Assembly: GCA_938075305.1 (NCBI GenBank) | Contig: CALJGV010000041.1 | Coordinates: forward strand, 1-64,000 | DNA: 64,000 nucleotides | Reading direction: 5' to 3' | Source of the DNA: an uncultured bacterium | GTDB taxonomy: Bacteria; Planctomycetota; UBA1135; GCA-002686595 | Part shown: positions 7,966-54,127 of the stretch, piece after piece | How positions within the stretch are numbered: position 1 is the first letter of the stretch | How the letters are laid out: the number at the start of each line of letters is the position of its first letter | The notes under the pieces: generated by a model | What the model was told of the DNA's origin: nothing | What the model saw: the letters and a program-made list of their open reading frames with translations, nothing else | The model's database searches: none | Translations under genes and position numbers: made by a program

Positions 7966-10629
7966 TCAGCGGAGGCCCTTGAGGTGGGCCAGCAGGCTGA
8001 GGGCCTCCATGGGGGTGGTGGCCTCCACGTCGATCTCATCCACGGCCTTCTCGAGCTCGGAGGGCTCGTTGTCGAAGAGGCCCAGCTGCAGGCCGGGGGG
8101 AAGCTCGAAGGCGGCGAAGCGAGCGGGGTCCAGGACGCGGCCGCCGAGGTCCTCGGCCTCCCGCTCGATGTCCTTGAGGACCGCCCTCGCGCGCTCGATC
8201 AGGTCCGAGGGGACGCCGGCGAGCCGCGCGACCTGGATGCCGTAGGAGCGGTCCGTGCCGCCCTGGACGATCTGGTGGAGGAAGACGATCTCGTCGTCCC
8301 ACTCACGGACGGCGACGGACAGGTTGTGGACCCCGGTGAGTTCGCCGGAGAGCTCGGTGAGCTGGTGATAGTGGGTGGCGAAGAGGGTCCTGGCGCGCAC
8401 CTGGTCGTGGAGGTGCTCGACGATGGCCCAGGCGAGGGCGAGGCCGTCGAAGGTGCTGGTCCCGCGGCCCACCTCGTCCAGGACCACCAGACTCTTGGCG
8501 CCCGCGTTGTTCAGGATGTTGGCGATCTCGACCATCTCGACCATGAAGGTCGACGCGCCCCGCGAGAGGTCATCGGCGGACCCGATCCTCGTGAAGATCC
8601 GGTCGCACACGCCCACCTTGGCGGCGGCCGCCGGGACGAAGGAGCCGATCTGCGCCAGGAGGACGATGAGGGCGGTCTGTCGGATGTAGGTCGACTTACC
8701 CGCCATGTTCGGGCCGGTGATGATCCCGACGCTGCGCTTCTTGCGGTCGAGAGAGGTGTCGTTGGGGACGAAGGTGACGTCGGTCTGCGTCGCCTCAATG
8801 ACCGGGTGACGGCCGGCCTCGATCTCGATGCTGTCGCCGCCGTCCACGCTTGGGGCGCAGTAGCGGCGGGTGGCGGCGGTCTGGGCGAGGCCCGCGAGCA
8901 CGTCGACCTCGGCCAGGGCGCGAGCGGTGACCAGGATGCGCGGGACCTCGCGAGCGACCTCCTCCTTGAGGGCCTGGAAGATGTCGTACTCCAGGTCCTT
9001 CGCCCGCTCCTCGGCGCGCAGGACCTTGTCCTCGAACTCCTTCAGCTCCGGCGTGATGTAGCGCTCGGCGTTCTTGAGGGTCTGCTTGCGGACGAATTCC
9101 GGCGGCACCTGAGCGACCTGGCCGCGCGGCACCTCGAGGTAGTAGCCGAAGACGCTGTTGAAGCCGATCTTGAGCCCGGGGATCCCGTACCGCTCGATGG
9201 CCTCGGCCTGGAAGCGCGCCATCCAGGCCTTGCCGTCCCCGGCGATCTGGCGGAGCTCGTCCAGGTCGGCGTCCACCCCGGTCGCGATCACCCCGCCCTC
9301 CTTGATCGTCATGGGGGGTGACTCGACCACGCGGGAGTCGATGGAGCCGATGACGTCCTCGAGCGGGTCGAGGGCCACGCGGAGGTCACCGAGGACCTTG
9401 GAGTAGACGGCGTCGAGCTTGGCGACCAGGGGCGCCACGACGCGGAGTGACCCCGCGAGGGCCACCAGGTCCCGGGCGTTGACCCGGCCCGTCGCCACCT
9501 TGGCCACCAGGCGCTCGATGTCCAGCACGCCGCCGAGGTGGTCCCGGACCTCCTCGCGAAGGAAGGGCGCGTCCACGAACTCGGCCACGCCGCGCTGACG
9601 GTGGAGGATGACCTCGACGTCGCGCAGCGGGTTCAGGAGCCAGTCGCGCATCAGGCGGCCGCCCATGGGTGTGAGCGTGGCGTCGATCGTGTCGAGGAGC
9701 GATCCCTCGCGCCGCGCGCCGCGTTGGGTCTGGGTGAGCTCCAGGCAGGCTCGGGTGGCTCGGTCGAGGACGAGGTGCTGCCCTGTGTCGACCCGCTCAA
9801 GGCGCAGGAGATGCTCACAGCTGCCGCGCTGGGTCTCGAGGGCGTACTCAACGGCGGCGCCGGCCGCGCAGATGCCGAGGGCATCGTCGTCGAAGCCGAA
9901 GCCCTCGAGGGTCTTCACCTTGAACTGCTCGTTCAGCACGCGACGGCAGGTGTCCCGGGCGAAGCGCCAGGGTTCGCGCCATGTGATGCGCTGGGCGAGG
10001 TCCAGCTGGAGCTGTTCAGCGAGCTCGGGCGCCGTGCGGGGCAGGTCCTCGGGGACGAGCAGCTCGGCCGGGGCCACGCGGGCGAGCTCGTCCATGACGC
10101 GGTCCACGGCCACGTCGCAGGCCGCCGCGCGGCCGGTCGAGAGGTCGATCCAGGCGAGACCTGCGCGCCCTCCATCGAGGAGCAGGGCGGCGAGGTAGTT
10201 GCTGGCCCGTGAGTCGAGCTCGTCCTCCTCGGTGATGGTTCCGGCGGTCACCACGCGCACGATGGCGCGGTCGACGATGCCCTTGGTGGTGCGCGGGTCA
10301 CCGGTCTGCTCGCAGACGGCCACCTTGTGCCCCGCGCGCACGAGCCGCATGAGGTACGGCTCCATGGACTTCACGGGGACGCCGGCCATGGGCATGGCGT
10401 CGGCGCCCTTGGCCCGCGAGGTGAGGGCGATCCCCAGCTCCCGGCTCGCTACCTCGGCGTCGCTGCCGAACAGCTCGTAGAAGTCGCCCATGCGGAAGAA
10501 CAGCAGGGCGTCGCCAGCCTCACGCTTCGCGGCGTTGAACTGGTCCATCATGGTCACCTTCGGCTTCTTGCCGGAGCCGCGCACGGTCTTGGCGGCGGTG
10601 GTGGACTTGGGGTGCTCGGTGCTCGTCAT
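7966..10629 (-). CDS. mutS: DNA mismatch repair protein MutS
   Basis: The 887-residue protein recognises base mismatches and small loops and starts repair. The mismatch-binding motif is MGDFYELFG near residues 47-55 (Phe50, Glu52). Connector, lever and clamp domains follow, including GIPGLKIGFNSVFGYYLEV. The C-terminal ABC ATPase has GPNMAGKSTYIRQ (Walker A, about residue 638), LVVLDEVGRGTSTFDGLALAW (Walker B and D loop) and FATHYHQL. The length is normal for MutS1. About 26 basic residues precede the usual MMDQFNAAKREAGD start, and ATGs there are possible alternatives. No mutL is in this window. Confidence 0.97.
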   Translation of the reverse strand: MTSTEHPKSTTAAKTVRGSGKKPKVTMMDQFNAAKREAGDALLFFRMGDFYELFGSDAEVASRELGIALTSRAKGADAMPMAGVPVKSMEPYLMRLVRAGHKVAVCEQTGDPRTTKGIVDRAIVRVVTAGTITEEDELDSRASNYLAALLLDGGRAGLAWIDLSTGRAAACDVAVDRVMDELARVAPAELLVPEDLPRTAPELAEQLQLDLAQRITWREPWRFARDTCRRVLNEQFKVKTLEGFGFDDDALGICAAGAAVEYALETQRGSCEHLLRLERVDTGQHLVLDRATRACLELTQTQRGARREGSLLDTIDATLTPMGGRLMRDWLLNPLRDVEVILHRQRGVAEFVDAPFLREEVRDHLGGVLDIERLVAKVATGRVNARDLVALAGSLRVVAPLVAKLDAVYSKVLGDLRVALDPLEDVIGSIDSRVVESPPMTIKEGGVIATGVDADLDELRQIAGDGKAWMARFQAEAIERYGIPGLKIGFNSVFGYYLEVPRGQVAQVPPEFVRKQTLKNAERYITPELKEFEDKVLRAEERAKDLEYDIFQALKEEVAREVPRILVTARALAEVDVLAGLAQTAATRRYCAPSVDGGDSIEIEAGRHPVIEATQTDVTFVPNDTSLDRKKRSVGIITGPNMAGKSTYIRQTALIVLLAQIGSFVPAAAAKVGVCDRIFTRIGSADDLSRGASTFMVEMVEIANILNNAGAKSLVVLDEVGRGTSTFDGLALAWAIVEHLHDQVRARTLFATHYHQLTELSGELTGVHNLSVAVREWDDEIVFLHQIVQGGTDRSYGIQVARLAGVPSDLIERARAVLKDIEREAEDLGGRVLDPARFAAFELPPGLQLGLFDNEPSELEKAVDEIDVEATTPMEALSLLAHLKGLR

Positions 10630-10877
10630 GGGCCTCGATGCAAGAATGTAACCGAGGGGGGCCGCGGCCTCCGCACTTGTGGCGAGGAGGAGTCCGCCAG
10701 GCGGCCCAGCCGGGGTGAGTTGGGCCGGGGAGGGTCCAACCGGTCGCGGGTGGACCCGGGCGGGCCGAGACCGGGGCTTTCGAGGGTGGAGACGTCGATC
10801 AGGGCTTATGCTCTCGTCAGAGCCCGCTCGTACCCCACACCGGACCCACCCCCGGCGCGGATGAGGGCTCCCACCCC

Positions 10878-12248
10878 GTGATCACCAGACCTCGACTGGA
10901 CCGGCTGCTCCTCACAGCTCCGGTCCCCATCCTCGCGCTCTCGGCGTGCGCGACCTACAACGAGCGGGTAGAGGCTCCCCTGCGCGCGTTCGAAGGGGGG
11001 CAATTCGCCGCCGCCGAGGCGCTCTTCGGGGAGGGAGAGTCAGACGGGTCGCCCTTCCTGTCGTCTGCGGAGGCGGGGACGGCCGCATTCGTGGGCGGGG
11101 ACTTTGGAGGCGCGCTCGATCACCTGCACGCCGCCGAGGACGCGGTCCGTGACGTGGAGGAGCGTGCCCTGATCGGGGGGGAGGGGCTGACCGAGGACCT
11201 GCTGTCCCTGGTCATCAACGAGGGGCAGAAGGCGTACGCCGGAGAGGGCTACGAGCGGGTCATGCTGCACTCGCTGCTCGGGATGTGCTACCTGGCCCGG
11301 GGCGCCCCCGACGACGTCCTCGTGGAGGCACGCCGCGTGGACCAGCTCCTCACCGCGGAGGAGCAGCTGTACGACACCGAGTACCGGGCCGGCGGCCTCG
11401 GGCACCTGCTGTCCGCCGTTGCCTACGAGCTGGTGGGGAAGCCGGGCGAGGCCTTCATCGACTACAAGCGGATGCTCGAAAAGGGCATCGGGGGAGAGCT
11501 GACCACCTCCGCCCTGCGGCGCCTGGGCGGACGCCTAGGTCGCCTGGATGAGCTCGACCTCCCCGAGGGTGCCGAGGGGCCGCCCCGGGGCTGGCCCAGC
11601 GTCGTCCTTGTGGGGGGGCTCGGCATGGGGCCGGCCAAGCGTGAGATCAGGATCGACGTGCCGATCGACGGGGGAATCTTCGCCTGGTCCGTCCCGGAAT
11701 TCGACGGTGGGACGTCCCCCGCTTCCGCCCTCGACATCGTCCTCCCAGGCCGCTCCATGCGGGTCCGAGCTTCCGAGATCGAGGACGTCGCCGCGGTGGC
11801 CAAGCGGAATCTCGAGGACAGGATTGCCTGGCTCGCCGTTCGGTCGGCGGTCCGTGGGCTCCTGAAGCGCGAGGCCGCGGAGCAGCTTCGGAGGAGCTCG
11901 GACACCGAGTGGCTCGCCGTCGCGATGGACGTGTTCACCATCGCCTCGGAGCGGGCGGACCTCCGCGCGTGGCGAACGCTGCCCCAGCGCTGGGTCGCGG
12001 CCCGCGTCTTCCTCCCGCCGGGAGAGGCGGTCGCCCTCGAGCTGGCCACGGACGCGGGCGCGACCGTGGAGCTCGGCTCCTTCCGGCTCGAGGCGGGGGA
12101 GACCATGTTCGTCCTCTCCAGGGCGCTCCGAAGCGGGCTCACAGCACACGTCATCGGTGGGGAGAGGCTCCCCGACTCGCCACCGCTGGCCGATCCAACA
12201 TCCAACCCATCCCAACCCGCGCCGGACCCTCCGGCGTCCAAACCATGA
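10878..12248 (+). CDS. COG3014-like TPR lipoprotein, partner of the LpoB-type gene
   Basis: The 456-residue protein starts at GTG 10878 and has a lipoprotein signal with lipobox LSAC (Cys24). Residues 30-220 form TPR-like helices (FEGGQFAAAEALFGEGESD; RVMLHSLLGMCYLARGAPDD; EARRVDQLLTAEEQLYD). Residues 240-420 are beta-rich (SVVLVGGLGMGPAKREIRID). Organisation and gene context match COG3014, an uncharacterised family found next to LpoB in other Gram-negatives. The stop overlaps the lpoB-like start (ATGA, 12245-12248), so the two are translationally coupled. It is probably a periplasmic, lipid-anchored component of cell-wall synthase control. That role is inferred from linkage. Confidence 0.72.
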   Translation: MITRPRLDRLLLTAPVPILALSACATYNERVEAPLRAFEGGQFAAAEALFGEGESDGSPFLSSAEAGTAAFVGGDFGGALDHLHAAEDAVRDVEERALIGGEGLTEDLLSLVINEGQKAYAGEGYERVMLHSLLGMCYLARGAPDDVLVEARRVDQLLTAEEQLYDTEYRAGGLGHLLSAVAYELVGKPGEAFIDYKRMLEKGIGGELTTSALRRLGGRLGRLDELDLPEGAEGPPRGWPSVVLVGGLGMGPAKREIRIDVPIDGGIFAWSVPEFDGGTSPASALDIVLPGRSMRVRASEIEDVAAVAKRNLEDRIAWLAVRSAVRGLLKREAAEQLRRSSDTEWLAVAMDVFTIASERADLRAWRTLPQRWVAARVFLPPGEAVALELATDAGATVELGSFRLEAGETMFVLSRALRSGLTAHVIGGERLPDSPPLADPTSNPSQPAPDPPASKP

Positions 12249-12895
12249 AATTCACCACCACGGCGCTGCTCGCAGCGATCCTCGCCACGTCGTTCCAGGC
12301 CACCGGCTGCAGCTCGATCCGTTACGGCGACGCGGACAAGACGGAGACGACCACGATCGACTGGGGGTCGAAGGACCTCCAGCAGTTCGCCGACTTCATG
12401 GTCGGTTCGCTGATCGAGAGCCCCGGCCTGAACTACATGGACAGCGAGGGGAAGGGCGCAGACAAGCGCATCATCGTCGCCTTCGGTGGCATCGCGAACG
12501 AGACGAGCGAGCACATCAACACCGAGATGATCTCTCGACGGATCCAGGACCAGCTCCTGGAGAGCGGCAAGTTCCGCTTCGTTGCGCGCAAGGAGGCCGC
12601 GGGCCAGAGCGAGATCGAGGACGAGGTCCGCTTCCAGCAGGGTTCGGGCCGGGTCAAGCCGGAGATGGCCAAGGCCTTCGGCCAGCAACTGGGGGCCGAC
12701 ATCGTGCTCTACGGGGCGCTCGCGGACATCTCCAAGAGCACGGGCCGGTCCATCGAGAGCGTCGGGACCAAGAAGAAGGACGTCTACTACCAGTTCTATC
12801 TGTCGGCCGTGAACATCACGACCGGCGAGATCCTCTGGGGGAAGACCGAGGACATCCGCAAGGAAGCGACGGTGGGCCTCTTCGGGCGGGGTTGA
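12245..12895 (+). CDS. LpoB-family penicillin-binding protein activator
   Basis: The 216-residue lipoprotein has signal and lipobox FQATGC (Cys22). The mature domain has the LpoB pattern: DLQQFADFMVGSLIESP, DKRIIVAFGGIANETSEHIN, MISRRIQDQLLESGKFRFV, LGADIVLYGALADISK, YYQFYLSAVNITTGEILW. In Enterobacteria LpoB is an outer-membrane lipoprotein that stimulates the bifunctional peptidoglycan synthase PBP1b. Its presence with the coupled COG3014-like gene upstream suggests the organism regulates peptidoglycan synthesis. The KTEDIRKE end is also typical. It could serve another target if no class A PBP exists in the genome. Confidence 0.88.
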   Translation: MKFTTTALLAAILATSFQATGCSSIRYGDADKTETTTIDWGSKDLQQFADFMVGSLIESPGLNYMDSEGKGADKRIIVAFGGIANETSEHINTEMISRRIQDQLLESGKFRFVARKEAAGQSEIEDEVRFQQGSGRVKPEMAKAFGQQLGADIVLYGALADISKSTGRSIESVGTKKKDVYYQFYLSAVNITTGEILWGKTEDIRKEATVGLFGRG

Positions 12896-30846: not shown

Positions 30847-31824
30847 ATGCTTCGCACCCTCTTTCTCCTCGCCGCGGCGGCCGCGCCCGCGCCCCTCTTC
30901 GCCGACGCAGAGGCGGTCCCCCCCAAGAAGCCCGTCCAGGTCTTCATCCTCGCGGGTCAATCGAACATGGTCGGCGCGGGCACGGTGCCCGCCAACCCTG
31001 ACCGCAACGGGGGGAAGGGGAGCCTCGAGTACCTCGTCACCGCGAAGGAGGCGAAGAAGCGCTGGTCGCACCTGGTCGACAAGAAGGGGGGGTGGATCGC
31101 CCGGGAGGATGTCTGGATCAACTACTTCGACCGCTACGGCGAGCTGACCCCGGGCTACGGAGGGAACGAGGGCCAGATCGGTCCGGAGCTGGGCTTCGGT
31201 CACGCCGTTGGGGAGGGCTGCGATGAGCAGGTCCTCCTCGTCAAGGTGGCCTGGGGCGGGAAGAGCATCGGCAAGGACTTCCGTCCGCCGAGCGCCGGCG
31301 GAGAGGTCGGCCCGGAGTACACCAAGCTCTTCGAGGAGATCCGTCGGGCCCTGGATGCCATCGAGGAGCGGTTCGAGGGTTACAAGGGGCAGGGCTTCGA
31401 GCTGGCCGGCATCGGGTGGCACCAGGGTTGGAACGACCGGGTGAACCAGGCCTTCAACGACGAGTACGAGAAGAACCTGGCTTGCTTTATCCGTGACGCA
31501 CGCAAGGAACTGGAGGCTCCCGACCTGCCGTTCGTCATCGCCGAGACCGGCATGAGCGGCCGCGAGGAGAAGCACCCAAGGGCGCTCTCGCTCATGCGGG
31601 CTCAGGCGAAGGTCGCCACCTACCGCGAGTTCAAGGGCAACGTGGCCTTCGTGGCGACCCGCGATTTCTATCGCCCGGGGGAGGAGTCGCCCTCGAACCA
31701 GGCGTACCACTGGAACAGCAACGCCGAGACCTACCTCCTCATCGGAGAGGGCATGGGCGAGGCCATGCTCGAGCTGCTCCCGAGGTACCGGAAGAAGCGC
31801 GCCAAGGCGGCGCGCGGCCGCTAG
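30847..31824 (+). CDS. Exported SASA-domain (sialate O-acetylesterase-like, CE6) esterase
   Basis: The 325-residue protein has a signal peptide (LFLLAAAAAPAPLFA). The SGNH-type nucleophile motif is FILAGQSNMVGAG (Ser39). ELAGIGWHQGWNDR is the oxyanion and Asp-bearing block. NQAYHWNSNAETYLLIGEGM holds the C-terminal catalytic His. The family removes acetyl groups from sialic acid or xylan. Planctomycetes have many such genes for polysaccharide breakdown. Its end overlaps the lipid operon's last gene by 4 bases on the opposite strand, leaving no room for a terminator. Confidence 0.9.
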   Translation: MLRTLFLLAAAAAPAPLFADAEAVPPKKPVQVFILAGQSNMVGAGTVPANPDRNGGKGSLEYLVTAKEAKKRWSHLVDKKGGWIAREDVWINYFDRYGELTPGYGGNEGQIGPELGFGHAVGEGCDEQVLLVKVAWGGKSIGKDFRPPSAGGEVGPEYTKLFEEIRRALDAIEERFEGYKGQGFELAGIGWHQGWNDRVNQAFNDEYEKNLACFIRDARKELEAPDLPFVIAETGMSGREEKHPRALSLMRAQAKVATYREFKGNVAFVATRDFYRPGEESPSNQAYHWNSNAETYLLIGEGMGEAMLELLPRYRKKRAKAARGR

Positions 31825-34378
31825 GCGTTCCGCGCGCCGGTCATCTGCTGGACGAGGTGCCGGACGGTCCGCGGGAGGAACCGCTGCCTGCGGACCCGGT
31901 GGATCACGTGATAGGCCGTGAGCCGGGTCACCAGCAGGGCGTGACGCGCTCGCGCGGCGTCGCGGGCCCAGGCCTCTCGGTCGAGGGGAATGCCCGACGC
32001 GCGCTCGAGGGCCACGCGGTGCGCCTCCACCCAGCGCTCCGGGTCCGCGGGACCGACGAAGGCCAGGAGCTCGACCAGGTCGCGCTGGGGGACGTCGAGG
32101 GTGGCGAGCTCCCAGTCGTAGGCGACGAGGCTGGGGCCGGTGTCGGAGCGCCGGAAGCCCACGTTGCGGGGGTTGAAGTCCCCGTGGATCAGGGTGCGGG
32201 GTGTGCCTGACGGGGCATCCTCCAGGAGCTCGTCGAGCACCCCTTCGAGATCCACTCCGCTCCAGCCATGGAAGTCCTCGGCGGCGCTCGCCGTGAGGGC
32301 GCGCCAGAATGGCGCGAGCTTCCGCAGCCGGTCGGGGGTTGGGGGCGCACCGATCCAGGGTGCTCCCTCGAGCTCATCGGCGCGGCCCAGATAGGCGGCG
32401 TGGATCGAGGCGAGGCCTTCCACGGCGGCCGAGAGGTGGGCGTCGGTCCAGTCTTCGGGGCGGTCCGCGGAGTCCATGAGCTCCAGGTCTCCAAGGTCCT
32501 CCATCAGGAGCCACCGTCGACCCTCGGCCTCGTCCACGTGGGTCCCCAGGTGCCGGGGCCGGTGGCTCGCGAGGGCCGGATCCGCGAGCAGCTGCGTCTC
32601 CCGCAGGTGCGCCCCCAGGAGGCCGGCCTCGAGTCCGTGCTCGCGCCAGCGAGCGCCGAGCTCGTCGCTGGCCATGGCGAAGACCCTGACGAGCACGCCG
32701 TGGAGCTCGTGGTCCTGCTGTCGGGCCTTGAGGACAGCGGTTCCCTCGGCCCCGTGCCAGCGGGAGAGTCCGCTGGCGGCGCCAAAGCGCCACGCGCCAA
32801 GCTCCGCCAGGATGCTGCTGCCCTCGAGGCGCTCCACCCCGGGGCGGGTGGCGCCGAGGCGGCGTTCCACGAAGGCGCGCTGCGCGGCGCGTTCGCTGGC
32901 CTCCTGCTCCTCGGGGCTCGCGGCCCGTGCGGGCGCGGCAGGGGGAGGAGCGAGGTACCCCGCGCTCTCTAGCCCCGCGGTCCACCGTTCCAGGAGGGTG
33001 GTGGTCGGCTCCGGGCAGCGATGCCCGTGGGCCTCGAGCCAGGCCGCGCTCGCGCCCGAGTCCACCTGGGTCCGCCGCGACTCCTCGTACTGCTGGGGGA
33101 GGGTGCAGGCGCCCTCCCCGCCGGGTCGGGACCGCAGGAACGGAAGCAGCGCCTTGAGGGCGTGGGTCGCGGGGGCGGCCTCGACCTCGGAGAGCCAGGC
33201 GTCGTAGGGGACGAGCCGCAGGTCGTGGCCGTAGAGCGCGTGCCACAGCACGACCTCACGGAAGGGGCGAGGGCGCGGGCTGACCAGGTGGAGCGCCACC
33301 TGACCATCGGGGCCCTGGGCCGCGCGCTCCGCGAGCGCGGCGGCCACGTGATCCACCGGGACCGCGTCCACGTTCCAGTCGAGGTCGGGGGCCAGGCCGA
33401 GCTCAATGCACCCCTTCATGAGGGCGGAGAGGAAGTCTCCAGGGTTCCCGGCGCCCGTTCGCGAGTCGCCGGCGACGAGGGACGGCCGCGCGATCGTGAT
33501 GGGGAGTCCCCGTCGCCCCGCCTCGAGGACAAGCTCCTCGGCCACGGCCTTCCCCGCGGCGTAGCCGAGGTCGAGCCCGCCGAGGTGCTCCAGGGGTTCC
33601 GCGCCCTCGTCCAGCTCATCCGCGCCATCGCGGGCGTAGAGGACGGAGATGGAGGAGCAGAAGTGGAAGGCCTTGGGCCGGTGCTCGCAGGCGAGGCGGA
33701 GCAGCTCCCGGGTGCCCTCGGCGTTGGACGTCCGAAGCGCGGCATAGGGGGAGACCCAGTCCACCTTCGCCGCGAGGTGGAGGACCGCGTCGACCTCCTC
33801 GCCGAGGCGAGCCCACGTGAACGGGTCGAGGCCGAGCCGGGGCCGCTCGAGGTCGCCGGCCAGGACCTCGATCCGATCCCCGGCGCCGTCGAGGCCCCGC
33901 GACGCCAGCGCCTCGACCACGCGGGCGCCGTCGCCCCCGCGGACCAGGCAGGTCACCCTGGCCTCCGTCGTCTGGAGGAGCTGGGCGAGGGTGTGGGCGC
34001 CGAGGAAGCCCGTGGCGCCCGTCATGAGCACGTGCTCCGGGGGACCTGCCGGTCGGGGCGCGAGGGGCGGCCGAATCTCCGCGGGAAGGGTCGCGTCGGA
34101 CCACGGGTCGGCGGTGCAGGTCGCGGTTCCCCTGGCGAGCCACTCCAGGGCGGCGCGGGGTGAGGGGTGCTCGTAGAGCAGCGTGTCGGGCACCGTCACC
34201 CCGAGCCGCTGCCGGAGCTCCTCGGTGAGCTCGACCGCGGTCACCGAGTCCAGGCCCAGCTCGAAGAGCGGCGCGTCGGGGTCCACGGCCTCGACCGGGA
34301 CCCCGAGGAGGTCGGCGATGCGGATCACGAGCCAGGCCAGGTCGGGATCGCCGGTTCCGAGGTGGGGGAGCGCGAGGG

Positions 34379-34382
<4 letters not shown>
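31821..34382 (-). CDS. Fused acyl carrier protein / thioester reductase / APH-type kinase
   Basis: The 853-residue protein has three parts. Residues 12-85 are an ACP with the phosphopantetheine Ser46 in LFELGLDSVTAVEL. Residues 115-490 are an NAD(P)H thioester reductase of the carboxylic-acid-reductase kind, with VLMTGATGFLGAH (119-130), the Y274-x3-K278 pair (LGYAAGKAVAEE) and GNPGDFLSALMKGC. Residues 510-853 are an aminoglycoside/choline-kinase-like fold with the Brenner loop HGDFNPRNVG (733-742) and YDWELATLD. The likely job is to hold an acyl chain received from the adjacent acyl-AMP ligase, release it reductively as aldehyde or alcohol, and phosphorylate a hydroxyl. Start and upstream stop overlap by 4 bases. 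The combination is unfamiliar to me. Confidence 0.85.
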
Positions 34383-36124
<1,742 letters not shown>

Positions 36125-36129
36125 GGTGG

Positions 36130-36924
36130 TCACTGGCGGCGCGCGGCCTTCCTCCGCTGGTGGACGGTGTTCAGGGCGTCGAACACCGCCGCGCGCTGTT
36201 CGTCCAGGGCCTCGACCGTCCACTCGCTGGTGTCGATCGTGGGCAGGACCTCTACGGTCACGGTGCCGGGGCGCACGTCGAGCCCGAGGCCCGGGTCCAC
36301 CGCGGGAGGGACCTCGATGTAGAAGGGGACGATGGGTGTCTGGAGGTCGGTCGCCATGTGGAAGGCACCCTTGTTGAAGGCGCCGAGCTCACCGGTGGTG
36401 ATCCGCTGTCCCTCGGGGGACAGGTAGACGGACTCCCCCGTGCGCTTCAGGGTGGCCGCAGCGCGGGCGAAGATCCGCTTGCGCGCCTCGGGGTACTCCT
36501 GGGGCACGGTCCAGAAGATCCCTGTCACGTAGCCGATCAGGCCGAGCGGCAGGATCTTCCGCAGGAACCCGGACAGGAAGAACCGCGCGCCGGGGAGCCC
36601 GAGCGCGATCAGCACGAACATGTCCACCGAGGACGTGTGGTTGGAGACGTAGACGGTCTGAGTCCGCGGAAACGGGAGCGCCCCGACGACCTTGAGGCGG
36701 ACGCCCCAGAGGGCGAGCACGGCGCGCCCGATCCAGGTGCTCAGGGCGAGGTACATGCGCCGGAACTGGAAGAGCGTCAGGACGGCGACGAGGAGCAGCA
36801 GGACGCTCCCCACGGACAGCGTCGTGAACACGATCGCGGAGAGGCACCAGAGCCGCAGGGTGGCGCGGAGCGAGCGCTCCTCGTCGCTGCGGGCCGAGCG
36901 CCCGACGCCGAGGAAGGTGCTCAC
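36130..36924 (-). CDS. PlsC-family acyltransferase (1-acylglycerol-3-phosphate acyltransferase-like)
   Basis: The 264-residue protein has two N-terminal hydrophobic helices (FTTLSVGSVLLLLVAVLTLF and a shorter one). The acyltransferase motifs are VSNHTSSVDMF (HX4D), GARFFLSGFLRKILPLGLIG (motif II), YLSPEGQRITTGELGAFNKG (motif III) and TPIVPFYIE (motif IV). It transfers an acyl chain to a glycerophosphate-like hydroxyl at the membrane. The GTG at 36924 is chosen because it overlaps the methyltransferase stop as GTGA, and the upstream frame is a shadow of that gene. It could use acyl-ACP made by the neighbouring FAAL. Confidence 0.9.
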   Translation of the reverse strand: MSTFLGVGRSARSDEERSLRATLRLWCLSAIVFTTLSVGSVLLLLVAVLTLFQFRRMYLALSTWIGRAVLALWGVRLKVVGALPFPRTQTVYVSNHTSSVDMFVLIALGLPGARFFLSGFLRKILPLGLIGYVTGIFWTVPQEYPEARKRIFARAAATLKRTGESVYLSPEGQRITTGELGAFNKGAFHMATDLQTPIVPFYIEVPPAVDPGLGLDVRPGTVTVEVLPTIDTSEWTVEALDEQRAAVFDALNTVHQRRKAARRQ

Positions 36925-37943
36925 GCGGGCCTCCGGCAGACCACGGATTGCATGGCGAGGTTGTTCTTGCGGGCGAACATGAGCCAGGGGCTGACGAGCG
37001 CTTGACCGAGCAGGTACCGGCCCAACTCCTGACGGGGGACGAAGCCGCGGCCCTTCAGCTGGCCGAAGCGCCACCCCGCATAGATGTAGAACCACGGTGG
37101 GAAGGCGCCGTAGGGGAGGTGCGTCTCGACCTCGAACCCGGCGCGCTCGACGGCGCGGAGCAGCTGCTCTCGCGAGAAGAGGACGGTGTGCTGGGGCGCC
37201 TGAAGGCCGGGCCATCGGTCGCCGTACCAGCGCGCGGTGCGGCTGTCGAGACGGGGCACCTCGATGACCATCTGCCCCCCCGGCCGCAGGACCTCGCGGC
37301 AGCGCTCCAGGGTCGCGGGCGGGTCGTAGTCGTGCTCCAGGTAGTGCCACATGGTCACCAGGTCCATGGACCCCGGCTCGATGGGGGCCTCGCTGAAGAG
37401 CCCCTGGATGAAGCGGTTGTGCTCGAAGGCGGGAGCGTCCGAGAGGTCCTTGAAGTCGACGCCGACCCCGGTGCACCCGTGCCGCTTGCGGAGCTCCTCG
37501 AGGAAGGTCCCCGCCGCGCACCCGATGTCGAGGACGCGCGAGGTGGGGTCGAGGGGGACGAAGCGGTTGACGAGCTTGCGCTTGTCCCGGTCGTGCTTGC
37601 CCATGACCCACCGGTAGAAGGGAGTGAGCACCCCGAAGTCCGAGCTCTTGCGGTGGGCGATGTAGGTGTCGTCGTACCACTCGGCGATCCCGTCCGCCGG
37701 GATGCGCGGGTCCTGGTAGGCGAGCCCGCAGTCGTCGCAGGTGTGGAAGGTGAAGCGGCCTGGCTTGCCGCCGAGGTCGTCCTTCGCCTCGGTGAGGAAC
37801 GTCTTGCTGGAGCTCCCGCAGGCGTAGCAGTCGACCGCTTCGAGGTCGTGACTCCCCATCAGGGGCGGGGCCTTGAGGGCACGGGAGGGGCTCGCGGTGG
37901 CGGCCGCCTCGGGCGCCTGCTGGTCAGGGTTGGTGAGCGTCAT
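36921..37943 (-). CDS. Class I SAM methyltransferase with N-terminal zinc ribbon
   Basis: The 340-residue protein has a zinc-ribbon-like start, CYACGSSS...CDDCGLAYQDPRIP, followed by a Rossmann methyltransferase domain: RVLDIGCAAGTFLEELRKRH (motif I), GVGVDFKDLSDAPAF, MDLVTMWHYLEHDYDPPATL and LRPGGQMVIEVPRLDSRTAR. This layout is frequent in polysaccharide and natural-product clusters (C- or O-methyltransferases acting on sugars or lipids). Embedded in the lipid operon with 4-base overlaps on both sides, it probably methylates the lipid product or its head group. Confidence 0.88.
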   Translation of the reverse strand: MTLTNPDQQAPEAAATASPSRALKAPPLMGSHDLEAVDCYACGSSSKTFLTEAKDDLGGKPGRFTFHTCDDCGLAYQDPRIPADGIAEWYDDTYIAHRKSSDFGVLTPFYRWVMGKHDRDKRKLVNRFVPLDPTSRVLDIGCAAGTFLEELRKRHGCTGVGVDFKDLSDAPAFEHNRFIQGLFSEAPIEPGSMDLVTMWHYLEHDYDPPATLERCREVLRPGGQMVIEVPRLDSRTARWYGDRWPGLQAPQHTVLFSREQLLRAVERAGFEVETHLPYGAFPPWFYIYAGWRFGQLKGRGFVPRQELGRYLLGQALVSPWLMFARKNNLAMQSVVCRRPA

Positions 37944-38527
37944 CGGAGGTCCGGGTCGGTGGCGCGCTCATGGAGGACGAGCGCGCCGTAGAGGAGCGTC
38001 ATGGCGGCGACGCGTGGGAGGGTGTGGGCGCCTGAGGTGCCGAGGAGCACGGCGAGGGCGGGGTACTTGGCGAGGAGCACCAGGGCGTGGATCCAGGGGC
38101 GCTGGCGCGGAATCACGTACCAGCTGCCAAGGGCGACCAGGAGCGCCACGAGGCCTGCGGCCCGGGCGGGCGCGACCCCGTGGAGCGTCACCAGCGCGGA
38201 CGCGAGGCCCGCGCAGAGCACGGCCACGTGCTGGCCCGCGGACGCGGCGCGCACGAGGCTGCGCTCGGGATGGCGGAGGCGATCGGACGCGCGGTCCACG
38301 AGGTCGTCGAGCAGCCGCAGGCAGACCACGAGCAGGTAGGCAGTGCCCAGCCGGAGCGCGGCGCCCGCCGCGCCAGGCCAGGGACCACCCGCCATGCCCG
38401 CGGCGACGATCGCCGTCGCGAGGAGCGGGAAGCGCCAGGCCCCGGATCCTCCGAGCACGCGCTCGGTGAACCAGGCGATGGGCCCTGAGGCCGACCGGCT
38501 GGGGCTACTCGTCGACGATACGGACAT
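37940..38527 (-). CDS. Short UbiA-like integral membrane protein
   Basis: The 195-residue protein is mostly hydrophobic with about six helices. After the second helix it carries RLLDDLVDRASDRLRHPERS, close to the first Asp-rich motif of UbiA prenyltransferases (DDxxDxxxDRxxHPxR) that binds Mg-diphosphate. Classical UbiA proteins have about 290 residues, nine helices and a second Asp motif. Here the second half is missing. It may be a minimal UbiA-like transferase or a degenerate half. Its start overlaps the dikinase by 23 bases and its stop overlaps the methyltransferase start by 4. Confidence 0.65.
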   Translation of the reverse strand: MSVSSTSSPSRSASGPIAWFTERVLGGSGAWRFPLLATAIVAAGMAGGPWPGAAGAALRLGTAYLLVVCLRLLDDLVDRASDRLRHPERSLVRAASAGQHVAVLCAGLASALVTLHGVAPARAAGLVALLVALGSWYVIPRQRPWIHALVLLAKYPALAVLLGTSGAHTLPRVAAMTLLYGALVLHERATDPDLR

Positions 38528-41039
38528 GGCCGCGGCCTCCGTCCACTCGGATCTTCTGGCCGGTCGTGAGGGCCCCGGTCACCCCGGGGACACCCACCAC
38601 GGTGGGCAGGCCGTACTCGCGGGCGAGGATCGCGCCGTGGGAGAGCAGGCCACCGCGCTCCACCACGAGGCCGGAGATGAGCGGGAAGAGGGGGGCCCAC
38701 CCCGGGTCGGTCTGCCGCGTCACGAGGATGTCGCCCGGCGAGACCTCCCCGGCGTCCGCGAGGTCGGTGAGGACCACGGCGCGCCCCGTGATGACCCCGG
38801 CGCACGCGCCTGCACCGTCGAGGCGCGAGGTGTCCCCGGCCTCCTCCTCGCTGCCGATCCACACCTCACCCTCGGGCAGCGTGAAAGCGCTCGGCGGACG
38901 GACGGCGGCCTGCCGGGCGTGCTCCTCGCGGCGCACGACGGCGACCCGAGCCGCGCTCGCCGGCTGGAGGGCGGATCCTGCGGCGAGGTCGCAGAGCTCC
39001 TCGAGGGAGAAGTAGACCGCGTCGTCCGCGTGCTCGAGCAGCCCTTCCCGGACCATGGCGGCGCCCAACGCGAGGGCGACGTCCCGCAGTCGGCGATAGA
39101 GGAGGGCCTGCTTGCCGCGGGCTCGCTCGCGCATGGTGACCGACCGGGCGCACGCCCGGGCGATGGGGCCGAGCGCGAAGCCCCGCCACCCACCCAGCTC
39201 CCTGGCCAGTCGCTTGATGGCCCGCAGGCGCTCGTCGGCCCGGACCGCCGCCACCTCGTCGGGGGCCGGGCCCTCGGCGTCGAGGTAGGCCCGGAGCAGG
39301 GAGAGCACCCGGGCGGGCTCCTCCTGGTAGCTCGGCACCGTGAACACGAGCTCTCCGGAGCAGCGGTGGCCGTGGTCCTCGAGCCACGCCTCGAAGGCCG
39401 CGCGGAAGGTCGCGTGCCTGGGCCGCTCCCGGATGGCCGCGAGGGCGACCGCGTCGTCGCCGCTGCGCAGGAGGATCTCAAGCTCGTCGTCCGGCGCAGC
39501 GCGCACGAGGCGGGCCAACTCCCAAAGCCCCGCCGCAGGGGCGGCGCTCACCACGTCGAGGCCCTGTAGGACCTCGCCGGCGGCAGCGCGCGGATCTCCG
39601 CTCACCGGGGAGAGCACCTTGAGGAGCAGGCCGTGGGTGATCATGGCGCTCGCGTCCGCCAGCCCGGCGTCGGTCCACCGGTGGCGGCGGATGCGCGTGA
39701 AGCCCTCCACGCGCGTGCCGAGGTCCACGCGGTCGAGCTCGGCGAGGACCTCTCTCGAGGTGGATCGTGCGTAGGCGTCCACCCGCGCCTCGAAGCGCTC
39801 GACGCCGCGCTCCAGGCGGAGCCAGGCCCGCGTCATGCGAACCGCCGTGCCGCAGAGCCGCAGGGCGCTGCGCAGCCGCCCGTCCGGGGCCACTCGCTCC
39901 GCCTCGGGGAAGCCCTCCGCGCCCGTGAACGCGTTGAAGGACGAGGTCAGGAAGGCGCCCCCCGGGGCCGCTCGCATGACCGCATGGAGGTTGGTGAGCT
40001 GGTAGTACAGGCGCCCCTCGTGGGCGCCGACCAGGCGCTCAAGGCGAGGTTCGAGGGCCGAGAGGGCGCGCTCGGAGACGCCGATGACCCGGGCCAGGCC
40101 GCGGAAGTAGTGGGTATAGCCCGTGGCGGCGACGGAGTACTGCAGGGGCGTGATCGGCGTGGGGAAGTTCTCGTCCACGTTGGCGTTGGTCCACGCCACC
40201 TTGGCCCGCGTGCAGGCGACGGCCGTGATGGGGCGCGACTGGACCACGTGCAGCTCACCGTCCTGGTCGAGCACCCACTCCACGTCCTGCTCGGAGCGCC
40301 CCGTCCGCCGGGCTTGGGCCGCGAGGCGTACGAGCTTGTCCCTGGCGTCGAGCAGGGGCCGCGGGTCGACCTCCCCCTCGAGTCGCTGCAGCTCCGTGAT
40401 CACTCCGGCGCGGTCGAGGGAGAGTCGTCCGGGGGTGACGCGCCCGGAGACCAGGTCCTCGCCAGGCCCGTGGACGTACTCCACCAGCGTCCGCTCGGCC
40501 GCGGGCTCGGCGGGGTCGCAGGTGAACAGGACGCCGGCGAAGTGGGCGTGGATCTGACGCTGGACGAGGACGGCCAGTCCGCCGAGGGGGCGGCCCCTGC
40601 GCGCCTCGTAGGCCCGGACGCGCTCGGCGGCGCGGGCCGCCCAGCATTGGCGGAGCGCGAGCTCGAGGTGGTGCGACCCCTCCACGTCGGCGATGGACTC
40701 GAGCATGCCAGCGAAGGACGCGTCGGCGGAGTCCTCGCCCAGGCCGGAGCTCCGGACGATCAGCGTGCCCTCGAGGTGCCGGCAGGCGTCGAGCAGCACG
40801 CCCTGGAGCGGTTCGGGGAGGGCCGTGCCGCGGATCCCAGCGGCGTCGTGCTCGTCGAGGCCCGTGGCGGTCAGGAACTCGCGGCGGAAGCGGTCGGTGA
40901 TCACCACGCCTGCGGGGACGGGGAGGCCCGCGGCCGCCAGGGCGGCCTGGCTCGCCGCCTTGGCGCCGAAGAGCGCGGCGTCGTGGGCGGCTTCGAGCCG
41001 GACGAAGGGCGCCGCCTCGGTGGTGGGGTGGAGGACCAT
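38505..41039 (-). CDS. Rifampin-phosphotransferase/PEP-synthase-like dikinase
   Basis: The 844-residue protein starts with a PPDK-type ATP-binding domain (1-300: LIVRSSGLGEDSADASFAGM; AGVLFTCDP; VEWVLDQDGELHVVQSRPIT). A large helical middle domain follows (about 310-750). It ends with the swivelling phosphohistidine domain (GVITGRAVVLTDLADAGEVS; GGLLSHGAILAREYGLPTVV, with the catalytic His). There is no C-terminal PEP/pyruvate barrel. ATP domain, unique middle, His at the end is the order of rifampin phosphotransferase, which moves the beta-phosphate of ATP to an alcohol. Here it probably phosphorylates a lipid or polyol hydroxyl. It overlaps neighbours by 1 and 23 bases. Confidence 0.85.
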   Translation of the reverse strand: MVLHPTTEAAPFVRLEAAHDAALFGAKAASQAALAAAGLPVPAGVVITDRFRREFLTATGLDEHDAAGIRGTALPEPLQGVLLDACRHLEGTLIVRSSGLGEDSADASFAGMLESIADVEGSHHLELALRQCWAARAAERVRAYEARRGRPLGGLAVLVQRQIHAHFAGVLFTCDPAEPAAERTLVEYVHGPGEDLVSGRVTPGRLSLDRAGVITELQRLEGEVDPRPLLDARDKLVRLAAQARRTGRSEQDVEWVLDQDGELHVVQSRPITAVACTRAKVAWTNANVDENFPTPITPLQYSVAATGYTHYFRGLARVIGVSERALSALEPRLERLVGAHEGRLYYQLTNLHAVMRAAPGGAFLTSSFNAFTGAEGFPEAERVAPDGRLRSALRLCGTAVRMTRAWLRLERGVERFEARVDAYARSTSREVLAELDRVDLGTRVEGFTRIRRHRWTDAGLADASAMITHGLLLKVLSPVSGDPRAAAGEVLQGLDVVSAAPAAGLWELARLVRAAPDDELEILLRSGDDAVALAAIRERPRHATFRAAFEAWLEDHGHRCSGELVFTVPSYQEEPARVLSLLRAYLDAEGPAPDEVAAVRADERLRAIKRLARELGGWRGFALGPIARACARSVTMRERARGKQALLYRRLRDVALALGAAMVREGLLEHADDAVYFSLEELCDLAAGSALQPASAARVAVVRREEHARQAAVRPPSAFTLPEGEVWIGSEEEAGDTSRLDGAGACAGVITGRAVVLTDLADAGEVSPGDILVTRQTDPGWAPLFPLISGLVVERGGLLSHGAILAREYGLPTVVGVPGVTGALTTGQKIRVDGGRGHVRIVDE

Positions 41040-41623
41040 CAGGCAGGACGCGCCTTGAAGCCCCGGCGCCAGAGGAGGACGTTGAAGAGCCAGTGCACCA
41101 CCGGCCCCGCGAGCAGGACCACGAGCCAGGTCCCGGCGGGGAGGCCGAAGGTGAGGTGGACCGCGAGGAGCAGGCCGAGGATGGAGTCGAGGCGGTCGGC
41201 GATGAAGCAGACGGTGGCGGCGAGCCGGCCGTGGGGGGCGCCGCCGGGGGCGACGTCGAGCTGCCGCTTGACGAAGGAGTTGGGCAGCTCGCCCAGCATG
41301 AACCCGAGGCCGCCCACGAGTCCGAGCAGGGCGTAGCCTCCAGGGCCCAGGTCCCAGAGGTGATCGGCGGCGCGGGGGGCGAGGGCGAGCGCCACGCCGA
41401 GGCCAAGGCAGGTGAGCCCCGAGGCGGGCACCATGACCACCAGGCCGCGGAGGGTCTTGTTGGCGCCGAACAGGCGGCGGCCCCGGAGGTGGAGGCCGGC
41501 GTCGAGCGGGACCCGCAGGGACTCCAGGGCGGAGCCGGGGAGCCAGCGGGTCTGGAGCCAGCCCGAGAGGGAGAAGGCCGTGAGCAGGAACAGCCCGCGG
41601 GCCAGGGCGTCGGGGTCGATCAC
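41039..41623 (-). CDS. CDP-archaeol synthase-like (CarS/DUF46) membrane CTP transferase
   Basis: The 194-residue protein has about five membrane helices. LFGANKTLRGLVVMVPASGL, FMLGELPNSFVKRQLDVAPG and IADRLDSILGLLLAVHLTFG match the CarS/DUF46 pattern (GxNKTLRG, LGE...SFVKR, D.xD). In archaea this enzyme makes CDP-archaeol from unsaturated archaetidic acid and CTP. It is related to bacterial CdsA. In this operon it could CTP-activate a non-standard lipid phosphate. The GTG at 41623 overlaps the desaturase stop (GTGA). Its stop shares one base with the dikinase start. Confidence 0.83.
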   Translation of the reverse strand: MIDPDALARGLFLLTAFSLSGWLQTRWLPGSALESLRVPLDAGLHLRGRRLFGANKTLRGLVVMVPASGLTCLGLGVALALAPRAADHLWDLGPGGYALLGLVGGLGFMLGELPNSFVKRQLDVAPGGAPHGRLAATVCFIADRLDSILGLLLAVHLTFGLPAGTWLVVLLAGPVVHWLFNVLLWRRGFKARPA

Positions 41624-42594
41624 AGCTGGAACTCCGTGGTGTTCGAGTTCTCGAAGAGGAAGCGCTCGCCGGAGAGGCGCTTGGCGCCGCGGAGGAACCG
41701 CCAGGCGCTCACTCGACGCGGCGGCACCCACGGCACCTGGTGGAGGCGATATCCGGGGACCTGCGGGTAGGCGTGGTGCCGCTCGTGCTCGCCCGTGCCG
41801 CAGAGGAGCCCCAGGCCGATCCACCTGGGGAAGTCCACGGAGCGGGTGTACTCGGTCTGCTCGGTCCCGAGCCTCGGGCGGACGGGCTCCTCGCCCGCCG
41901 TGGGCATGGGGATGTGGGTGTGCTGGCTGAGGATCAGCGGGTCCTGGAAGGCGAGGCCGAGGACGACCCCGGGGCCTACGAGCCAGAGCAGGTGCACGGG
42001 GCCCACCGCAGCCGCGAGGGCACCGTAGGCGAGGACCTGGACCAGGGCGGCGCGCCGTGCCGCGGACCCTCTCCCCTTGTGGAATTGCTCGAGGCGGCGG
42101 ACGTTCCAGAAGTTGTTCCACCGGTAGGCGATGGAGAAGAGCGGGAGCCAGGTGCGCCACGCGACGTTCGCGAGCTGGCGCTCAAGCCTCCCGCGGGTCC
42201 GCGGCGCGAGGGACTCGGTGGTCGAATCCCGGTCCTGCCACCCCGTCCATCGGTGGTGCCCGGCGTGGACCAGGCGCCAGGTGGAGAAGGGGATGAGCGC
42301 CAGGAGGCCAGCGAGGTGGCCCGCGGCGCGGTTCAGCGCGCGAGCGCGGAAGAGGCTGCCGTGCCCCGCCTCGTGGAGCAGGCAGAACCACTGCAAGGTG
42401 CCGAACCCGATCAGCACCTGCCCGATGGCCCACAGGAGGAGCGAGCTCTGCGCGGCGAGGGCGACGCCTCCGCCGACGAGCGTGACGCCGCTCAACACGA
42501 AGGCTGCACCGGCCGCGTTCGAGGGACTCAGTCCGTCGAGGGTCTTCGGGCCAGGGATGAGTGCAGGCGAGGAGGCAGGATCCTTGGTCGGCAT
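41620..42594 (-). CDS. Membrane fatty acid desaturase
   Basis: The 324-residue di-iron membrane protein introduces a double bond (or hydroxyl) in a fatty acyl chain. The three His boxes are LLHEAGHGSL, HAGHHRWTGW and GEHERHHAYPQVP, with an extra LSQHTHIP. Four hydrophobic stretches lie between them. The ATG at 42594 has GGTGGGG about 7 bases upstream. A GTG at 42597 is immediately before it. This is the first gene of the eight-gene lipid operon. The 'SNTTEF' C-terminus is unremarkable. It may use lipid-linked or ACP-linked chains. Confidence 0.92.
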   Translation of the reverse strand: MPTKDPASSPALIPGPKTLDGLSPSNAAGAAFVLSGVTLVGGGVALAAQSSLLLWAIGQVLIGFGTLQWFCLLHEAGHGSLFRARALNRAAGHLAGLLALIPFSTWRLVHAGHHRWTGWQDRDSTTESLAPRTRGRLERQLANVAWRTWLPLFSIAYRWNNFWNVRRLEQFHKGRGSAARRAALVQVLAYGALAAAVGPVHLLWLVGPGVVLGLAFQDPLILSQHTHIPMPTAGEEPVRPRLGTEQTEYTRSVDFPRWIGLGLLCGTGEHERHHAYPQVPGYRLHQVPWVPPRRVSAWRFLRGAKRLSGERFLFENSNTTEFQL

Positions 42595-42806
42595 CACGAC
42601 CCCACCATGCGCTCTGGGCGACGTGGAACCGAGGCCGTTCCCGTCGATCGAGCCACCAAGCGAGGCTTATCGATGAACCCTCGAACGGGGTCCGGTCAAC
42701 GTGGCGGCCGTCTCCCTCGCCAGGAGATGAGCGAGCAGCTATCCAGACCCTTCCGTGCCTCCACCAGGTTTCTGGAATGTGTCGAGGCGGCGGCTTGCCC
42801 GCCGGT

Positions 42807-53305: not shown

Positions 53306-54127
53306 TCAGGCGCCGACGACCGCGCGCAGGAATCTCTCGACCCTTGCGCGCCCTGCGGGCTGGAAGAGGACGCCCGGGGAGTTGTGACCCCCGGCGCCCT
53401 CGATCCACTCCACAGGTGGCCGCGCCGCCTGCGCCAGGGCGGCGCCCATGTCGGCGGGGATCAGCTCGTCATCCGGCGAGTGGGCGATGGCGACGGGGAC
53501 CGTGACCTCGTCCATCTTGGCCAGGTTGTCGTACTCGATGCCCGGGAACCACCGGAGCGGGATCCACGGGTAGAGGAGCTCCGCCATGTCCGGAATCGAA
53601 GTGAAGGTGCTCTCCAGGAAGAGGCCGGCCACGGGCTGGCGGAGGGCGAGCTCGAGCGCGACGGCGCCGCCGAGGGAGCGGCCATAGGCGACGACCTTGG
53701 ACGGTTCGAAGCCCCCCTCGGCGGTGACCCAGCCGTAGGCGGCCTCCGCGTCGAGGTAGGTGCCGGCCTCGCCTGGTGAGCCGGTGCTCGCGCCGTAGCC
53801 CCGGTAGTCGTAGAGCAAAACGGAGAACCCCATGGCGACGAGGGCTCTCGCCGCCCTCGCCCGGCCCTCGATGTTGCCGGCGTTCCCGTGGCTGAAGATG
53901 ACCGCCCCGAGAGGCTCCGGCGCCGGGAGGAACCAGGCCCCGAGGGTCTCCCCGTCGCTGGTCGCGAGCGACACGGCGCGGCAGGGGTACCCGAGGTCCT
54001 CGGGCTGCCGGGACGGCGATGGCCCGGGGAAGTAGACGAGCCGCGGCTGGAGGGCGAGCACCGCCACGAGGCCGACGAGGTAGGCGGCGGCCAGCGCGCC
54101 CATGATTCGCAGGAGCCGGGGCCGCAC
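53306..54127 (-). CDS. Membrane-anchored alpha/beta hydrolase (BEM46/ABHD13-like)
   Basis: The 273-residue protein has an N-terminal membrane helix (MGALAAAYLVGLVAVLAL), then LVYFPGPSPSRQPEDLGYP, the typical BEM46 lead-in. AVIFSHGNAGNIEGR is the oxyanion region, VAYGRSLGGAVALEL the nucleophile elbow (Ser), HSPDDELIPADMG the Asp and GAGGHNSPG the His. The family includes serine hydrolases of unknown lipid or ester substrates. The start is GTG 54127 or ATG 54103. It follows the sulfatase-like gene after 4 bases, so the two form an operon. Confidence 0.88.
   Translation of the reverse strand: MRPRLLRIMGALAAAYLVGLVAVLALQPRLVYFPGPSPSRQPEDLGYPCRAVSLATSDGETLGAWFLPAPEPLGAVIFSHGNAGNIEGRARAARALVAMGFSVLLYDYRGYGASTGSPGEAGTYLDAEAAYGWVTAEGGFEPSKVVAYGRSLGGAVALELALRQPVAGLFLESTFTSIPDMAELLYPWIPLRWFPGIEYDNLAKMDEVTVPVAIAHSPDDELIPADMGAALAQAARPPVEWIEGAGGHNSPGVLFQPAGRARVERFLRAVVGA

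Follow-up and report, generated by a model that had tools for sequence, protein, structure and literature searches.

A planctomycete operon of eight genes, a candidate CDP-activated phospholipid pathway with exchangeable supply genes

Analysis of a 64,000-nucleotide stretch of DNA from an uncultured bacterium of the Planctomycetota (contig CALJGV010000041.1, positions 1 to 64,000; hereafter the window) reveals eight minus-strand genes, running from 42597 down to 31821 in one tightly packed run, which may encode an accessory, self-contained phospholipid pathway with cytidine diphosphate (CDP) activation, parallel to ordinary phospholipid synthesis. Judged from sequence comparison, we give this explanation an even chance of being correct. 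Its strongest points are the association of a CarS-like gene with a CDP-alcohol phosphatidyltransferase gene in two relatives, the presence of a PlsC-type acyltransferase in every core that the contigs reach, and the fusion of homologous kinases to unrelated reductases. Further support comes from six eight-gene loci in two families, a one-piece deletion in a close relative, purifying selection and co-variation of gene distances. Enzyme types usually split between archaeal and bacterial lipid making are joined here, and the product is probably an unusual membrane lipid. The operon touches two open questions, the lipid divide and the producers of orphan environmental lipids, and the combination of a UbiA-fold protein, CarS and PlsC with a swapped supply provides concrete genes and carriers for finding a lipid class.

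Results

In order of transcription, the genes encode a membrane fatty acid desaturase-like protein of 325 residues (41620..42597, start GTG 42597 or ATG 42594; PF00487, E 3e-29), a CarS-like CTP:lipid-phosphate cytidylyltransferase of 194 residues (41039..41623; PF01864, E 7.6e-10, above cut-off), a dikinase/phosphotransferase of 844 residues resembling rifampin phosphotransferase (RPH) and composed of ATP-grasp, middle and mobile His domains (38505..41039; PF01326 and PF00391), a short UbiA-fold membrane protein of 195 residues (37940..38527; PF01040, 23 bits, below the cut-off of 34.2), an S-adenosylmethionine-dependent methyltransferase of 340 residues (36921..37943; PF13489, E 9.3e-30), a PlsC-type acyltransferase of 264 residues (36130..36924; PF01553, E 1e-16), a fatty acyl-AMP ligase (FAAL) of 581 residues (34379..36124; PF00501, E 9.3e-56) and an 853-residue fusion of acyl carrier protein (ACP), thioester reductase (TR) and APH kinase (31821..34382; PF00550, PF07993 and PF01636). 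The open reading frames and their translations give successive overlaps of 4, 1, 23, 4 and 4 bases, a gap of 5 and an overlap of 4, exactly as listed in the first-pass annotation of this DNA, whose family labels also agree with Pfam throughout, UbiA alone being weak. All eight genes are under purifying selection (ratio of non-synonymous to synonymous substitution rates, dN/dS, 0.09–0.30 against two same-genus orthologues), the short UbiA-like gene included (0.27–0.30). Because of these values and of orthologues in the same order at five other loci (L032, L033, L073, L115 and L116), the operon is not a product of chance.

The methyltransferase, which is the best conserved member (44–55% identity to homologues outside the genus), served as marker for finding carriers of the cluster within this one phylum. 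With its profile, matches were obtained in 7 of the 392 genomes sampled across the phylum. In the order to which G418 belongs 3 of 146 genomes matched and in its family 14 of 241, while the orders of G085, G254 and G097 gave 1 of 2, 2 of 10 and 1 of 1, respectively; these genome sets overlap each other. Twenty loci from 21 carriers were examined, G745, with its methyltransferase split over two contigs, being left out; in L099, L118, L119, L120, L121, L122 and L124, contig ends interrupt the locus and the typing is incomplete. The search for the gene order across genomes, which the first-pass annotation had proposed, recovered the full set of eight genes, with order and strand conserved, at 6 of the 20 loci and in two families: the window, L032 and L033 belong to one genus, and L073 (G418), L115 (G692) and L116 (G686) to another family, related at phylum level only, with protein identities to the window from about 26% (UbiA-like) to 58% (methyltransferase).

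The UbiA-like gene is present in all 20 loci, the dikinase in 19 (L122 begins at the UbiA-like gene) and PlsC in 14, a contig end hiding the expected side in L118–L122 and L124. As far as the contigs show, desaturase, RPH-like phosphotransferase, UbiA-fold protein, methyltransferase and PlsC are always present, and CarS usually is; we refer to these as the core. FAAL and thioester reductase are absent after the methyltransferase in 11 of the 14 other core loci; in the remaining three (L099, L120 and L124) a contig end hides this stretch. Since core loci occur without them, FAAL and the ACP-TR-APH fusion look like an exchangeable supply module and not part of the core. The lipid reading of the first-pass annotation is supported, but not its placing of these two proteins at the heart of the pathway, and its order of steps and analogy to ElbD are borne out in part only; moreover, its chain of steps gave no role to the dikinase and the UbiA-like protein, yet these are the genes met at nearly every locus.

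The loci can be sorted into five types, of which type A is the full eight-gene set. Type B (L074) consists of a PlsC-desaturase fusion, methyltransferase, UbiA-like, dikinase and CarS genes together with an HMG-CoA reductase domain (10039–12345; PF00368, E 1e-94; TIGR00533, 253 of 442 bits) fused to an APH kinase that is homologous, at 22% identity, to the APH domain of the window. Type C (L072) carries on one strand PEP (phosphoenolpyruvate) mutase-like (TIGR02320, 285 bits, cut-off 320) and desaturase genes and the halves of a phosphonopyruvate decarboxylase-like gene, and on the other PlsC, methyltransferase, UbiA-like, dikinase, a second PlsC, CarS and an iron-type alcohol dehydrogenase (Fe-ADH) that most resembles the phosphonate type (178 bits, cut-off 424). 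In type D (L098, L099, L117 and L123, with L118–L122 partly visible) desaturase, CarS, dikinase, UbiA-like and methyltransferase genes are found with a separate PlsC nearby; the desaturases of L117 and L123 have N-terminal extensions, and a fused N-terminal second PlsC domain (PlsC2) is shown for those of L098 and L099 only. Type E (L070 and L071) is reduced to desaturase, dikinase, UbiA-like, methyltransferase and PlsC. L124 is cut on both sides. As a separate observation, the run of PEP mutase-like, desaturase and split decarboxylase-like genes facing the core in L072 (1118–4123) is a candidate phosphonolipid cluster.

In trees of the dikinase and of the methyltransferase (L032, L119 and L122 left out; alignment A5 left out L119 and L122), the window is placed next to type E (support 0.96 in either tree), apart from a group formed by the other type A loci (0.92 and 0.84, respectively). 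As the trees split the window from these loci, the eight-gene order is found in two separate core lineages, which would mean that it is ancestral or that it was transferred whole; support for the deepest split is weak (node 0.3 in the dikinase tree, 0.65 in the methyltransferase tree).

Close relatives were compared on draft assemblies, with genes called by a custom codon-score caller. Within the window's family, an orthologous dikinase (89–100% identity) together with CarS occurs in 3 of 81 genomes (G000, which is the window's own, G075 and G078), each with the whole block, and these three operons account for all CarS matches in the family; G014 and G015 have divergent full-length dikinases (31–35%) in a different gene setting. 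Nine genomes represent the genus: the block is present in three of them, a deletion scar in one, and five are without full-length orthologous dikinase and CarS; as far as this comparison reaches, the genes are not scattered in close relatives. In the genome with the scar, G073, the segment corresponding to window 32135–42797 is missing as a single deletion of about 10.7 kb, with flanks 88–91% identical to the window and abutting, and a 104-codon tail of the ACP-TR-APH gene is left. The scar lies at positions 10023–10036 of L132 (G073:C16:235000-246229), where the tail of the last gene sits downstream of a PQQ-type gene. Because the flanks abut and nothing but this tail is left of the last gene, the block was most likely present in an ancestor and then lost in one piece in G073. 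The same junction, read on one contig of an incomplete genome, points away from a horizontal gain by the genus of the window. The APH profile matches 5 of 392 genomes at E <= 1e-12, namely four carriers and the remnant in G073. Spread by plasmids is not favoured, the methyltransferase having no match in the plasmid collection at E 1e-30, and for a role in anti-phage defence no PADLOC match was obtained for the two of the eight proteins tested (P0003 and P0008).

Inspection of the single proteins agrees with their assignment. The desaturase has the His boxes HEAGH, HAGHH and HERHH, and PlsC keeps NHx4D and PEG in 13 of 13 sequences. CarS scores over the PF01864 cut-off in the window and in L073; the window protein carries ELPNSxxKR, a pattern checked in this protein only, and DxxDS. 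In the dikinase, Pfam finds ATP-grasp, middle and His domains and no PEP barrel, the His motif SHGA is present, and the best whole-length structural match of the predicted fold is rifampin phosphotransferase, in line with the original RPH-like label; a role as PEP synthase is not preferred on account of the unmatched barrel and of this structural match. The AlphaFold model of the UbiA-like protein (pLDDT 91.4, pTM 0.86) finds UbiA homologues at the head of its Foldseek PDB matches (4od5, 7bpu, 6m31 and 8j8j), none with E <= 0.001, and resembles DGGGP synthase (7bpu), archaeal lipid synthase (6m31) and membrane PRTase (8j8j), all three of which use phosphorylated alcohols. DDxxDxxxD is found in 15 of 17 of these proteins, that of the window included, and KYP in 17 of 17. 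UbiA labels in L083, L085, L086, L115 and L124 rest on similarity and position; no Pfam match is obtained for the proteins of L083, L115 and L124, that of L034 is under the cut-off, and among the loci scanned only that of L075 exceeds it.

The ligase is closest to FAALs rather than to CoA ligases. Its PDB matches are headed by 7r7e (titled polyketide synthase) and 3kxw, both of which we take to be FAALs, and include FadD23, FadD32 and fatty acyl-adenylate ligase entries; six of the first 15 have AMP ligase or adenylate ligase in their titles, and the other nine are presumably FAALs as well. Entries titled CoA ligase other than FadD28 score at most 77 bits, versus 239–410 for the FAAL matches, and FAAL models occupy most of the first ten NCBIfam places, all under cut-off. 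In the fusion protein, the thioester reductase domain scores 283 bits with TIGR01746, above the cut-off of 213, and 6 of 6 orthologues keep GLDS in the ACP, GATGFLG and YxxxK in the reductase and HxDFNPRN in the kinase (HGDFNPRN in the window).

Outside these loci, an RPH-like dikinase and a UbiA-like gene are adjacent or one gene apart together with a DUF3419 (BtaA-type) gene in L034, L036, L075, L082 and L084 (PF11899 checked in L034 and L075, the others labelled by sequence resemblance). These loci are without CarS, methyltransferase, PlsC and desaturase; L075, L082 and L084 also have HMG-CoA-reductase-like genes, and L082 an AMP-ligase. In L083 (5240–12016), CarS, CDP-alcohol phosphatidyltransferase and phosphatidylserine decarboxylase (Psd) genes lie beside the dikinase and the UbiA-like gene. 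The dikinase/UbiA pair thus looks like a lipid-building unit that takes different head-group modules, and the loci with HMG-CoA-reductase-like, UbiA, dikinase and DUF3419 genes are perhaps another undescribed lipid pathway; a brief literature search found no description of DUF3419/dikinase/UbiA-like loci. Two further features were seen here: a membrane protein resembling dolichol/phytol kinase by eye in L075, L082 and L084 (no Pfam match in these three; L077 has a cut version of this gene group), and, in L034 (9329–19461) and L036 (11236–19946), two RPH-like dikinases encoded on opposite strands within about 10 kb, which enclose UbiA-like, DUF3419 and Psd-like genes.

As regards the surroundings of the operon, the end of the ACP-TR-APH gene overlaps by 4 bases a convergent plus-strand gene (30847–31824). 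A promoter scan found none, and the single terminator-like match does not exceed chance level. The sole tRNA gene that ARAGORN finds in the window is a tRNA-His (gtg) at 53366–53444 on the minus strand.

Discussion

Conserved order, one-piece loss and lipid enzyme families support the proposal of the first-pass annotation that the eight genes are one functional unit with lipid chemistry. We infer its reactions, the order of the middle steps and the product from gene content, gene order, conservation, motifs, module swapping and two predicted folds. In the supply part, FAAL would adenylate a fatty or hydroxy-fatty acid and load it on the ACP, the thioester reductase would free the bound chain as an alcohol (or aldehyde), and the APH domain would phosphorylate the alcohol. 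As homologous APH kinases are fused to two unrelated reductases, reduction of the thioester to the alcohol appears to be tied to phosphorylation; the HMG-CoA-reductase/APH and thioester-reductase/APH fusions are a natural experiment suggesting that the pathway needs a reduced, phosphorylated alcohol. In the core, the RPH-like enzyme, judging from its architecture, may phosphorylate a lipid alcohol or phosphorylate an alkyl phosphate again, the UbiA-fold protein may join a hydrophobic chain to a phosphorylated alcohol as its nearest folds do, PlsC would esterify the remaining hydroxyl, and CarS, with cytidine triphosphate (CTP), would convert the lipid phosphate to a CDP-lipid. The head group would then be added by a CDP-alcohol phosphatidyltransferase, encoded (PF01066) directly before the desaturase gene and in its orientation in L115 and L116 and presumably elsewhere in the genome of the window, and desaturase and methyltransferase would tailor chain and head. 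A CDP-lipid that receives a head group is proposed because CarS is found with this transferase in L115 and L116, and with Psd in L083; the presence of the transferase at these three loci makes the CTP activation by CarS that had been predicted at first more likely.

Several observations weigh against this explanation. Next to the core of types D and E no supply module is present, and type E lacks CarS as well, so that CarS is not needed at the locus in all versions. The DUF3419 loci have dikinase and UbiA-like genes and no CarS, and the shared step may not be specific to phospholipids. CarS also occurs outside the archaea, with matches in Thermus composti and Deinobacterium chartae in the control search. 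The best NCBIfam model of the dikinase is NF004881, named phosphoenolpyruvate synthase (413 of 883 bits), followed by scores of 304 bits for RedH and 247 of 999 for RPH (NF041857), all under cut-off. For the UbiA-like protein, the best Foldseek E value is 0.15, the chain ends just past motif 2, and known UbiA chemistry requires an allylic diphosphate. Finally, the co-variation of gene distances across loci (r 0.84–0.998, computed with loci lacking a gene dropped gene by gene) is partly shared ancestry, the near relatives among the rows (the window with L032 and L033, and type D) inflating r.

A bolder version of the CDP-activated pathway, which we regard as somewhat unlikely, is that hybrid phospholipids across the lipid divide are formed, the UbiA-fold protein adding an ether-linked chain to a phosphorylated alcohol, PlsC an ester-linked fatty acid to the same molecule and the archaeal-type CarS activating the product. 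With interchangeable suppliers of chain or backbone (FAAL-thioester reductase-kinase, HMG-CoA reductase-kinase or phosphonate enzymes), the lipids of related bacteria would differ while belonging to a single undescribed class, whose backbone is possibly not glycerol.

The analogy to ElbD drawn in the first-pass annotation leads to another explanation, namely an alkyl or alkenyl ether phospholipid for which FAAL, ACP, reductase and PlsC act as the domains of ElbD do and the other genes tailor the product. In the available part of its description ElbD is listed with ligase, ACP, reductase and acyltransferase domains (PMC9131029), and homologues are reported from Planctomycetota metagenome-assembled genomes in the corresponding part of a second source (PMC11868695). 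However, the likeness ends with these four domains: ElbD is one protein, the five elb genes as given in the same part of PMC9131029 include no dikinase, UbiA, CarS or APH (the function of elbC being unknown), and the 11 core loci showing neither FAAL nor thioester reductase after the methyltransferase speak against it. We consider this explanation unlikely.

The variety of front ends bears on a possible non-glycerol backbone, in which they would deliver a hydroxyl and phosphate or phosphonate unit replacing glycerol phosphate (a diol phosphate, mevalonate phosphate or hydroxyethylphosphonate), to be acylated by PlsC and activated by CarS. Three chemically unrelated front ends are indeed found, FAAL with ACP-TR-APH in the window, HMG-CoA reductase-APH in L074, and PEP mutase, phosphonopyruvate decarboxylase and Fe-ADH in L072, and 1,2-diols replace glycerolipids in Thermomicrobium roseum, by steps not known according to the accessible portion of PMC2615216. 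On the other hand, the two PlsC-type domains in L072, L098 and L099 fit glycerol phosphate better, the phosphonate-type matches and that of the HMG-CoA reductase to TIGR00533 are under curated cut-offs, 6 of 14 control genomes likewise give PEP-mutase matches below the cut-off, and a front end of this kind is missing near the core in types D and E; we hold this backbone to be decidedly unlikely. Of 10 carriers, 3 have TIGR02320 matches, and in one of the three the match lies at the locus. A phosphonolipid is not favoured as product of the window, in whose genome no TIGR02320 match for a PEP mutase was found (assembly 89.99% complete).

That the front end makes the head group, varying by lineage, while the core makes an ordinary acyl lipid is improbable: a CDP-alcohol phosphatidyltransferase could plausibly use hydroxyethylphosphonate or phosphorylated short alcohols as acceptors, and front ends do vary while the core stays constant, but dikinase and UbiA-like protein are left unexplained, and so is the presence of FAAL, a class that acts on long chains.

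Comparison with known systems

Set beside known systems, the proposed CDP-activated phospholipid pathway shares part of its logic with the archaeal route, which proceeds through DGGGP synthase (UbiA) and CDP-archaeol synthase (CarS) to head-group transfer. The likeness consists of a protein of predicted UbiA fold and CarS in one operon, with the CDP-alcohol phosphatidyltransferase upstream in two relatives. In contrast to that route, no GGGP synthase is found among the eight genes of the window (the whole genome was not searched for it), PlsC is present, and the UbiA-like protein is short with a changed second motif. For Ca. Cloacimonetes genomes with archaeal-type lipid genes, CarS is stated as not detected in the available part of PMC7852524. 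Rifampin phosphotransferase shares domain architecture, predicted fold and the histidine motif with the dikinase of the window, which nevertheless scores far under the RPH family cut-off (247 of 999 bits).

ElbD of Myxococcus xanthus is, according to the part of PMC9131029 at hand, a single protein, and its operon also has HAD-like and epimerase genes. The two systems share ligase, ACP, reductase and AGPAT-like acyltransferase domains, whereas in the window FAAL and PlsC are separate, the only fusion being that of ACP and reductase with a kinase. The window further adds CarS, UbiA-fold protein, RPH-like dikinase, APH, desaturase and methyltransferase. A recent survey, in the portion available, names Planctomycetota as a possible source of very diverse lipids (PMC11868695). 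The first-pass annotation knew of no described pathway with this set, and none was found in the open-access literature searched (subscription papers mostly not covered). Enzyme families and activation logic are thus familiar from these systems, whereas their modular combination in the operon is undescribed.

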